Of a stretch of 64,000 nt of DNA, positions 7,607 through 33,648 are shown one piece after another. The notes under the pieces were generated by a model. That model ran no database searches. It was not told the origin of the DNA and saw only the letters and a list, made by a program, of their open reading frames with translations. A program made the translations under genes and the position numbers. The DNA lies in assembly GCA_003149065.1 (NCBI GenBank), contig QGFZ01000001.1, positions 682,001 to 746,000 of the forward strand, written 5' to 3'. Every line of letters begins with the position of its first letter. The stretch's first letter is position 1. Origin of the DNA: Ruminococcaceae bacterium R-25 (GTDB lineage Bacteria; Bacillota; Clostridia; Saccharofermentanales; Saccharofermentanaceae).

Positions 7607-7802
7607 TGTATCGAATACAATTGAAATTGAGGTCATTTCGATACACTAGTCAATTTGATTGTATCGAAAACTCAAAAGTAAGAGCTGTTTTCGATACATT
7701 TTCGCGAATTTGTATCGAAAACATGTATATTTGCCCCCATTTCGATACACTCTAATCTCGTACTGTATCGAAAACGAGGAAAAACACTTCAATTTCGATA
7801 CA
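7607..7802. repeat. 196-bp element of eight alternating inverted 12-mers (copy 1)
   Basis: Eight 12-mers alternate in orientation: + at 7607 (degenerate, TGTATCGAATAC), 7660, 7711 and 7764; - at 7634, 7687, 7738 and 7791. The core is TGTATCGAAAAC, complement GTTTTCGATACA, with TTTCGATACA as the shorter form. Gaps between them are 15, 14, 15, 12, 15, 14 and 15 nt. The spacers differ from one another. The element lies between the argG terminator and the start of the GNAT-argH pair. It has no recognised function. Short open frames through it lack ribosome binding sites. Confidence 0.9.
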
Positions 7803-7809
7803 AATAAAA

Positions 7810-7835
7810 GAGGGGATCGGCTGACCGACCCCCTC
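7810..7835 (-). terminator. argG terminator
   Basis: On the - strand the stem GAGGGGGTCGG/CCGATCCCCTC (one unpaired base, 4-nt loop) is followed by TTTTATTTG, 21 bp after the argG stop. Confidence 0.88.
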
Positions 7836-31692: not shown

Positions 31693-32658
31693 ATGAAGAT
31701 CATAACATTCCAGGACATCAATAACCTTGGTATCAAGCCTTCGATGTGCTATGACTGGGCAGAGACCATGATCAGAAATAAGAAAAAGGCAATCCTGCCG
31801 CCTAAGATCAGCCTTAAGCCTTTGGACGGCACATTTTGTAATGTTATGCCCAGCATGATCCCCGGTGTAGGTTCTGTTAACTACGGCGGTGTTAAAGTCG
31901 TTACCAGATACCCCAACCGTACTCCAAGCTTAGAGAGCCGCATCCTTTTAATGGATGCTGATTCCGGCGAATTCTTAGCCCTTATGGACGGCACCTGGAT
32001 CACTACAATGAGGACCGGCGCAGTAGCAGCTCATTCAATAGGTCTCTTTGCAAAGAAAGACTTTAAGACCATCGGCATGATGGGCCTTGGAAACGTTGTC
32101 CGCTCTACCCTATTGATCTTGCTTGATAAGATGCCTGACAGAGAACTTAATATCAAACTTCTTAAATACAAAGGACAAGAGGAAGATCTGGTTAAAAGAT
32201 TCTCAGGTTACGGCAACGTTCACTTCAGTTACGTTGATACGCCTGAAGAAATGGTCAAGGGATCAGATATCGTTATCTCCGGCGCAACTTACCTTCCCAA
32301 CGATGTTTGTGAAGATAAGTATTTTGATGAAGGCGTCCTTGTCCAGCCTATCCATACATTGGGCTTTACCAACTGCGATCTGTTCTTCGACAAAGTCTTT
32401 GCAGATGACGAAGGACATGTCCACCACTTTAAGAACTTCGATAAGTTTAAGAAGTTTTCTGAAGTCTGTGACGTTGTTAACGGTATTAATCCAGGTCGTG
32501 AAAGCGATTCTGAGAGGATCCTTGCGTATAACATCGGTGTTTCTATCCACGATATATACTTTGCAGGTTCCATCTATCAGCTGTTAAAGGAACAGGGATT
32601 ACTTGACTCACTAGCTGATGTTGACTTGCAAGATCCTACTGAAAAGTTCTGGGTATAA
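31693..32658 (+). CDS. ornithine cyclodeaminase / mu-crystallin family protein
   Basis: This is a 321-residue NAD(P)-binding protein of the OCD/mu-crystallin family. Marks are CNVMPSMIPGVGSVNYGGVK, LALMDGTWITTMRTGAVAA and the Rossmann motif IGMMGLGNVVRS. Family members deaminate ornithine to proline or reduce/synthesise imine-type amino acids, so the exact substrate is open (ornithine, alanine or a 2,3-diaminopropionate-type precursor). GAGAGGATC precedes the start. It is a one-gene unit closed by a strong terminator. Confidence 0.85.
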   Translation: MKIITFQDINNLGIKPSMCYDWAETMIRNKKKAILPPKISLKPLDGTFCNVMPSMIPGVGSVNYGGVKVVTRYPNRTPSLESRILLMDADSGEFLALMDGTWITTMRTGAVAAHSIGLFAKKDFKTIGMMGLGNVVRSTLLILLDKMPDRELNIKLLKYKGQEEDLVKRFSGYGNVHFSYVDTPEEMVKGSDIVISGATYLPNDVCEDKYFDEGVLVQPIHTLGFTNCDLFFDKVFADDEGHVHHFKNFDKFKKFSEVCDVVNGINPGRESDSERILAYNIGVSIHDIYFAGSIYQLLKEQGLLDSLADVDLQDPTEKFWV

Positions 32659-32680: not shown

Positions 32681-32716
32681 AAAAGGAGTTGCCTCGTTCG
32701 GGGCAACTCCTTTTTA
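32681..32716 (+). terminator. terminator of the ornithine-cyclodeaminase-like gene
   Basis: A 12-bp stem, AAAGGAGTTGCC/GGCAACTCCTTT, with an 8-nt loop is followed by TTTTT. The 196-bp repeat element begins 30 bp further on. Confidence 0.9.
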
Positions 32717-32745: not shown

Positions 32746-32941
32746 TGTATCGAAAACCCCTATTTTTATTGTGTTTTCGATACAAGTAAGTGCGATCGCG
32801 TATCGAAAACTTCTGCTTCTTATGTGTTTTCGATACAAAAACTCGATTTTGTATCGAAACGCGGTCGTTTTTCGAGGTTTTCGATACAGTAGAGTGCGGC
32901 CTTGTATCGAAAACTCTTGTTTTTTATGCGTTTTCGATACA
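32746..32941. repeat. 196-bp element of eight alternating inverted 12-mers (copy 2)
   Basis: Eight 12-mers alternate: TGTATCGAAAAC at 32746, 32799 (first base C), 32850 (last bases ACG) and 32903; GTTTTCGATACA at 32773, 32826, 32877 and 32930. Gaps are 15, 14, 15, 12, 15, 14 and 15 nt, identical to the element at 7607-7802, although the spacers are unrelated between the two loci. Like copy 1 it lies directly downstream of an intrinsic terminator, and reads in the same sense from it. The layout is two 92-bp halves around a 12-bp centre. Confidence 0.92.
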
Positions 32942-32959
32942 ATAGTTCGATCTGTATTT

Positions 32960-33619
32960 TTAACTGGTTAATGAGAAGTTCTCAATAGCCTTAGTGATCT
33001 CAACTGAAGTGAATTCAGGTCCATCTTCCAGCAATGTTCTTACGTAGTCTTTGCCTTCTTCGACAGAAATGCATAAGACATATTGGCCTCTTACTGCAAC
33101 AACCGGCAGTTCTTTAACCGCGCCTGTGTTTCTGTCTATAAGAACATTTACCTTGCCGCCTTCAGCTGCGCTCTTATACTGATCAGATTCCATATCCATC
33201 TTGAAAATATAAGCATCAAATTCATACCAAGTTTCGGGTTTGTTATCGAGTCCATTTTTAGTAAGGTTGCTAAAGTAACCTAATGTTATATTACGGTAAT
33301 CCTTGATACCCAATGTCTTATTCGTCTCAGCATCTTCAGGATCCATATTAAGTCTCAGATACTCCTGGCCTTCATGTGTATCGCCAAGACCATTCATGAA
33401 TTTGTCTGTGATCTCATCCAATGAAGATTTGATCATGCCTTCTACGAACTTCTCTTCAGTAGTAGTTTCTTCCGGCTCTGAAGCATCTGTAATGCCCTCA
33501 GTCTCATCCGTAATTACTTCTGAAGAAACTGTAGGATCATCAGATGGAACAGTAATGTTACAGCCTGCAAAGCCCAGCAAAACCGAGCATGCTAATAGTG
33601 TTGATAATACCTTTTTCAT
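32960..33619 (-). CDS. lipoprotein with one repeat module shared with 28.8-kb lipoprotein
   Basis: This is a 219-residue lipoprotein (lipobox GFAGC, lipid Cys20) with a Glu/Thr-rich linker to about residue 60. One module follows: GIKDYRNITLGYF, then IFKMDMESDQYK and VVAVRGQYVLCIS, aligning with both modules of the lipoprotein at 28755-29834. ATG 33619 is chosen over the frame's earlier 33640 start because GGGGAG precedes it and the signal then starts MKK. Function is unknown. The gene ends 18 bp from the repeat element. Confidence 0.7.
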   Translation of the reverse strand: MKKVLSTLLACSVLLGFAGCNITVPSDDPTVSSEVITDETEGITDASEPEETTTEEKFVEGMIKSSLDEITDKFMNGLGDTHEGQEYLRLNMDPEDAETNKTLGIKDYRNITLGYFSNLTKNGLDNKPETWYEFDAYIFKMDMESDQYKSAAEGGKVNVLIDRNTGAVKELPVVAVRGQYVLCISVEEGKDYVRTLLEDGPEFTSVEITKAIENFSLTS

Positions 33620-33648
33620 TCTTATTTCTCCCCAAAACATAAAAATAT

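Follow-up and report, generated by a model that had tools for sequence, protein, structure and literature searches.

Whole-turn arrays of inverted arms and a nuclease-like protein family predicted to read them in Clostridia

The array, its twin and the copies in the genome

The window analysed here is the whole stretch of 64,000 nucleotides and corresponds to C1:682001-746000 of a genome of 3.07 Mb assembled in 7 contigs. It harbours two intergenic arrays built from one arm in alternating orientation. The features at and around them are the following:

31693-32658, plus strand: flanking open reading frame, 321 aa, 3' end towards the array
32681-32714, plus strand: intrinsic-terminator-like hairpin preceding the array
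32746-32941, plus strand: four-unit palindromic array with eight 12-bp arms, 196 bp
32746-32784, plus strand: unit 1, arm, 15-nt spacer with T-tract, inverted arm
32785-32798, no strand: linker 1, 14 bp, holding AGTGCG
32799-32837, plus strand: unit 2, with one mismatch in the first arm
32838-32849, no strand: central linker, 12 bp, family consensus aaaacgcgaatt
32850-32888, plus strand: unit 3
32889-32902, no strand: linker 3, 14 bp, holding AGTGCG
32903-32941, plus strand: unit 4
32942-32958, plus strand: linker-like stretch followed by TGTAT, a possible remnant of a decayed fifth unit, judging from the letters
32960-33640, minus strand: flanking open reading frame, 226 aa, 3' end towards the array
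7607-7802, canonical orientation on the minus strand: second array of the window, with the same arms and gap series
7810-7835, minus strand: intrinsic-terminator-like hairpin preceding the second array in its own sense

The unit of the 32746-32941 array is 39 bp long, TGTATCGAAAAC-15-GTTTTCGATACA, and the units are joined by linkers of 14, 12 and 14 bp. The eight alternating 12-mers separated by gaps of 15-14-15-12-15-14-15 over 196 bp, described in the initial annotation, are present at both loci, as is the AGTGCG shared by two linkers. The same account placed a terminator before both arrays in the same sense, and this is correct for the two window copies, because the array lies downstream of each hairpin (32681-32714 on the plus strand, 7835-7810 on the minus strand). 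Some 12-mers are imperfect, for example CGTATCGAAAAC at 32799, TGTATCGAAACG at 32850 and TGTATCGAATAC at 7607. When the two arrays are compared, the arm cores are 98% identical and the spacers 30%, in agreement with the earlier statement that the spacers do not match. Allowing up to one mismatch, TGTATCGAAA occurs 22 times in the window, against 5.9 expected and a maximum of 12 in 100 shuffles.

Across the genome the exact TGTATCGAAA is found 68 + 72 times (140 in all), against 1 + 1 (2) for the reversed control, and close inverted arm pairs number 52 against 0. In all, 19 loci were found, comprising 15 full four-unit arrays and 4 partial or single-unit copies; a decayed fifth unit is present in 4 of the 15 full copies. 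All 19 lie outside genes called by a simple caller, which missed the nuclease gene beside the L017 array; this array sits between divergent genes. The idea that copies always follow terminators does not hold: only 9 of the 19 loci have, within 120 bp, a terminator that reads towards the array.

Across all 105 pairwise comparisons of the 15 full copies, identity in the 10-bp arm cores is 92–100% at any degree of spacer identity, which itself ranges over 25–99%. Ten of the 15 have the exact gap series, and in the remaining five (L004, L005, L006, L007 and L013) gaps are off by 1 base at one or two positions. The most diverged copies, L017, L020 and L023, have unalignable spacers yet retain the exact series, whereas L010 and L011 share flanks and 99% of their spacer sequence and so represent a recent duplication. 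Recent duplication thus explains part of the family, but in old copies both arms and lengths persist as the spacers diverge. The initial annotation had argued for selection on geometry with free spacer sequence, and had named variable gaps or alignable spacers as signs of simple copying. Its first half gains support from the conserved cores, from the exact gaps of the three diverged copies and from the evidence of related genomes considered below; the second half has to be qualified, as several related copies have alignable spacers and shared flanks, and most 15-nt spacers carry a central, phased T-tract, usually on the same strand and also in diverged copies.

This T-tract belongs to a wider periodicity. 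In the copies of this genome AA/TT steps recur every 10.4–10.6 bp, and the unit steps of 53/51/53 bp equal about five helical turns. The mean AA/TT power over ten copies is 4.67, compared with 1.72 when spacers are shuffled (sd 0.19, maximum of 500 shuffles 2.47); when 11 copies are tested singly, ten are matched by 0–7 of 2000 spacer shuffles and L023 by 35 of 2000.

Two side observations concern the history of single loci. L021 (C2:380366-380400) is a single unit that retains both outer flanks of the five-unit form and resembles a deletion between repeated units. In the flanks of L002, L003, L009, L010 and L011 there are palindrome remnants whose arms, GTGTAAA..TTTACAC and TTGTGCATTT..AAATGCACAA, are different ones and resemble those of two other paralogs, in our genome, of the gene family described below, as in composite arrays.

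The same architecture with other arms in related genomes

At E <= 0.1 a covariance model built from 21 half arrays found matches in 22 of the 117 other genomes searched, of which 21 are in the genus and a few match weakly. Loci of the genus carry other arms, including TGTATCTG, TTCTATCGG, TTATCCCA, TGTATACC, ACTCATCC and more, and an array of genome G174 with arm TTTACCCC displays the alternating gap series of the window array. Arrays with different arms share gene neighbourhoods across species, for example beside putative hisS, tig and carB. Among 39 arrays of relatives with both neighbours called, 36 are faced by the 3' end of at least one gene.

A second model, R2, searched against 291 genomes of the class, found matches in 4, all within the genus and including our own; arrays outside the genus emerged only when sought beside homologs of the nuclease-like gene, and were then seen in two families, f29 and f18, with none at the few genes examined in f5 and f73. 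Phages, plasmids and viral contigs gave no match to the element at the settings used, and searches of open-access literature brought up no paper recognisable as describing such arrays. In G079, G075 and G015 several arrays lie at contig ends; draft genomes may therefore under-count them. At two loci of G078, L139 and L140, the arm changes stepwise from unit to unit and in the same order, as if units had been added at one end.

Among 283 distances of 49–55 bp between arms of the same orientation, a set that has a few duplicate loci and includes neighbouring arrays unpicked by the covariance model, 200 are exactly 52 bp, and in 59 of 73 arrays the AA/TT signal has its maximum at the fifth harmonic.

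Inverted arms at gene ends could in principle be transcribed as RNA hairpins, in a 3' UTR or as a terminator-linked structure. Between species the arms do covary: 429 cells changed on both sides against 119 in shuffled data, in an alignment fitted to the structure and containing both strands of many loci. Within the genome the covariation is absent, with 14 one-sided and 0 compensatory core changes and G-T no commoner than other mismatches, which speaks for a DNA site and against an RNA helix. Several copies also lie beyond a terminator, ten loci searched against Rfam gave five matches at E <= 1, none of which exceeds the gathering score of its family, and an RNA structure leaves the helical periods unexplained. 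This explanation was dropped, and we regard it as barely credible.

A nuclease-like gene family beside the arrays

Comparison of array neighbours by BLAST revealed a 262-aa protein, matched by no Pfam or NCBIfam entry, that recurs beside arrays of three genomes. Counts of Pfam and PHROGs families over 87 neighbours had shown no family in more than 3 members. Searched in 14 genomes, it is matched in all, with a best E of 1e-37 or better in twelve; G001 and G005, where the matches reach only 2e-8 or weaker, are both devoid of covariance-model matches. An inverted pair in a promoter-like region of G001, with no array, was taken as chance. At E <= 1e-20 homologs are present in 14 of 245 genomes of the class, four of them in the genus. 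In our genome one paralog lies outside the window at C1:928810-929601: the L017 array precedes its likely start by about 35 bp and has the same arms as the window array.

This arrangement is common. Upstream arrays, called in a 420-bp window as at least four alternating arms with a period of 49–55 bp, accompany 25 of 47 family genes of the genus (25 of the 36 closest), the 47 being what remains of 49 matches at E <= 9e-37 once two from G075, one fragmentary and one interrupted by a stop, are set aside. Downstream arrays are found at 0 of the 47, and in 0 of 132 random control windows; the random windows are not matched for intergenic position, and the downstream windows are the fairer control. 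Of ten more distant family genes, seven have arrays of 73–75 bp period.

In a wider set of 83 genes, which includes other families of Clostridia, allows any period of 40–100 bp and excludes L228, L249 and L250 (no readable ORF by motif) and L285–L289, upstream arrays with at least four arms are present at 49 genes and with at least five at 38. The downstream figures are 5 and 3, and the random control gives 0 of 172. No upstream array of at least four arms was seen at 34 of the 83 genes; degenerate arms account for at least two of these, L210 and L230. Five homologs from outside the genus, L248 (G202), L268, L269, L271 and L279, have a downstream array, two of them also an upstream one; L248 has 12 arms.

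The 38 upstream arrays with at least five arms have periods of 50.8–54.0 bp (21 arrays), 62.1–63.7 (4), 73–75 (12) and 83 (1), that is 5, 6, 7 and 8 turns of 10.4–10.6 bp, with no intermediate values, although 40–100 bp was allowed. For the 16 periods above 56 bp, equal arms merged, the concentration at 10.5 bp is 0.90, a value that 0 of 20000 uniform draws attained; a free fit to all 36 periods prefers 10.95 bp. These counts are not independent, because genes and arrays share ancestry and the near-identical G142 and G295 are both included. A four-arm array, L267, has a period of 42.5 bp. A/T phasing at the turn number of the period itself dominates in only 20 of 36 gene-linked arrays; the rule for spacing therefore stands on firmer ground than that for curvature.

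A second motif, TTGAGAC/GTCTCAA, occurs upstream of nuclease genes, for instance at L183, L210, L182 and L181, and some of its sites consist of TGAGACTAGTCTCA plus another GTCTCAA. Of 44 family genes, 21 have the hexamer TGAGAC or GTCTCA in the 150 bp before them and 1 has it downstream; the motif may be a common operator.

The array-bearing paralogs of our genome differ in their arms: these are TGTATCGAAAAC at C1:928810, TGTGCAATT at C2:101939, TTTTACACCA at C2:178250 and CAGTCAAGA at C1:317188, with weaker palindromes upstream of the paralogs at C1:15413 and C1:63467. The pair TGTGCAATT...AATTGCACA occurs in 4 of 15 genomes (our own, G086, G076 and G073), and each of the first three contains a family gene preceded by the TGTGCAATT arm, together with one or more further pairs elsewhere. 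Of 39 dispersed arm 8-mers, which are partly redundant, 20 have a family gene in the same genome with at least three such arms; the cross-genome comparison gives 92 of 468. Matching of dispersed arms to family arrays of the same genome thus receives support, but not complete support. A co-variation of arm with protein was sought and dropped, as arm and protein similarity are uncorrelated among the 25 genes with arrays (Spearman -0.10, Mantel p 0.87; 0.08, p 0.16 for the best protein segment, 33–62).

A platform for a host protein that has a nucleoid or regulatory role and no relation to the nuclease, a curved-DNA site at gene ends, would account for the helical phasing, for the gene 3' ends facing the arrays in relatives and for arrays at shared loci of several species. 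It leaves the arm differences from gene to gene and the 25 of 47 upstream association unexplained, and we consider it improbable.

The AlphaFold model of the protein (mean pLDDT 92.7, pTM 0.65) comprises a helix at 2–28, three strands within 34–60, a helix at 65–97 and then a PD-(D/E)XK-like domain. The model suggests an N-terminal coiled coil with a beta tip and a C-terminal PD-(D/E)XK nuclease-like fold, and E162, D192 and H208 are among the residues invariant in 44 sequences. Superposed on TnsA (1f1z), the nuclease part gives Z 8.6 with an rmsd of 3.1 over 114 residues, slightly above the scores of unrelated models; Z is 8.1 with Bax1 and 6.7 with VRR-NUC, and Foldseek found nothing at E <= 0.001. 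For the N-terminus modelled by itself (pLDDT 87.1), the matches listed are coiled-coil proteins of a common kind and show no DNA-binding domain; a guess that it might be a three-strand DNA-binding domain of the integrase arm type lost ground accordingly, though an unlisted family may fit. Similar stretches occur in plasmid proteins annotated as AAA ATPases or helicases.

Presence and absence of the arrays can be compared with G019, a close relative in the same genus. For nine of our loci both flanks are located close together in that genome, and six of these regions were aligned. The whole G019 genome contains a single exact inverted pair, at the orthologous place of L022 beside a synteny break, and therefore no intact unit is present in the nine orthologous regions. 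The L062a place is a clean empty site directly after a terminator, and at the L017 place nuclease gene and array are both absent, the outer genes lying about 100 bp apart. In one intergenic region shared by both species, L061/L020 (C1:1133831) here and L084 in G019, a similar AT-rich stretch, cttttcaatagttttttatcgtttttcaatata, is found.

These differences would fit mobile repeats of a REP or MITE kind, with the arms as recombination ends, the nuclease as transposase and the scattered arrays as non-autonomous, functionless copies. The empty site, the joint absence of gene and array, the nine regions in a genome with one exact pair, the shared flanks of recent copies, the species-specific repeat families and the nuclease fold are all in keeping with such an origin. 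Against it, no target duplication is apparent by eye in the inspected flanks, the arrays of the genus set are one-sided (0 of 47 downstream), and old copies have intact arms and spacing beside unalignable spacers, which is unexpected for dead copies; the whole-turn periods are also left to explain. We judge this to be a rather unlikely explanation.

A predicted system of private addresses and its relation to known systems

The reading we prefer, and hold to be probable, is that an uncharacterised PD-(D/E)XK nuclease-like protein has a cognate array of sites, of which the window array is one dispersed copy. A dimer would read each inverted arm pair, and successive dimers would align on one face of the often curved DNA and assemble cooperatively. 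The array upstream of a gene would control that gene's own expression. The scattered arrays, mostly faced by a gene 3' end, would act in trans as additional docking sites, holding or titrating the same paralog; they may have multiplied in a REP-like manner, perhaps through nuclease-promoted breaks and their repair.

More generally, with family arrays seen in three families of Clostridia, a two-part system seems somewhat favoured, in which a paralog owns a whole-turn palindromic array, the arms are its private address and the scattered copies act in trans. On such a two-part reading geometry rather than sequence is conserved, and paralogs can therefore switch address with the machine unchanged. 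If this is true, it describes a class of protein–DNA system with privately addressed arrays and offers dozens of natural protein and site pairs at fixed geometry, and thereby provides its own test of how an assembly can be retained as specificity shifts. A function for the uncharacterised nuclease-like proteins would be suggested as well, and the presence of a species-specific family of repeats at the ends of genes would be accounted for. As a prediction, periods of 5, 6, 7 or 8 whole turns are sharp and cheap to test.

A/T tracts phased at 10–11 bp are characteristic of A-tract clusters and curved-DNA sites. The arrays share this phasing and differ in having, in addition, inverted gene-specific arms and exact unit lengths. 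The TnsA protein of Tn7 may resemble the family in its C-terminal fold; here, however, the N-terminus is a predicted coiled coil with a beta tip, and the proteins are paralogs present in multiple copies, many of which have their own array. No two-ended element of the Tn7 type was seen, in keeping with the one-sided arrays at the 49–55 bp period. PDC-S68, a PADLOC candidate, shares the nuclease domain, which matches the C-terminus of the profile (positions 1091-1218 of 1221, E 7e-27); the profile extends over about 1200 positions, whereas here the domain is part of a 264-aa protein with an array.

In the passages of PMC12045711 that describe TIGR-Tas, an array adjoins the gene of a nucleic-acid-guided protein, and its repeats are constant within a locus and differ between loci. 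The same can be said of the present arrays, whose arms might be taken as repeats and whose 12–16-nt spacers, variable like those of TIGR, might be taken as guides of the linked nuclease. This RNA-guided alternative has a slim chance in our estimate. TIGR-Tas has 36-nt units, spacers of 9–12 nt and two distinct repeats of 8–12 nt, whereas the periods here are about 52, 63, 74 and 83 bp, spacers and linkers of the full copies measure 12–16 nt and the repeats are inverted copies of one arm. Quantisation of the periods to helical turns and a T-tract in the middle of most spacers, even in diverged copies, are signals of double-stranded DNA geometry. The paralog of our genome matches no Pfam family at E <= 1, Nop included, and Nop is absent from the 25 of 45 Pfam families listed for 44 members.

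A close parallel to the preferred reading, a nuclease-like protein with a cognate array, is the REPtron, for which passages of PMC8266576 describe a nuclease-type gene adjoining the palindromes cognate to it; further copies, which vary by species, are dispersed between genes. REP/BIME sequences and RAYT (TnpA_REP) resemble the present case in having cognate repeats beside the enzyme gene as well as scattered copies, although here the repeats are cognate by arm identity only. The protein is nuclease-like, of the PD-(D/E)XK type, and the 39-bp units stand in whole-turn arrays. Y1 (HUH) transposases (PF01797) are missing from our genome at E <= 0.001 and present in 2 of 16 genomes; one of these, G006, has seven matches, and the other 14 have none. 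Among our 69 units with a following linker, the REP tag GTAG lies beside the palindrome in 2 and CGTC in 0. Membership of REP/RAYT was rejected on these two grounds, the transposase and the tag. The transposase and tag tests for the REPtron family failed, as did those for the TIGR-Tas protein and repeats; the arrays and their predicted binding protein would be REPtron-like in their working and built on another protein and another geometry.
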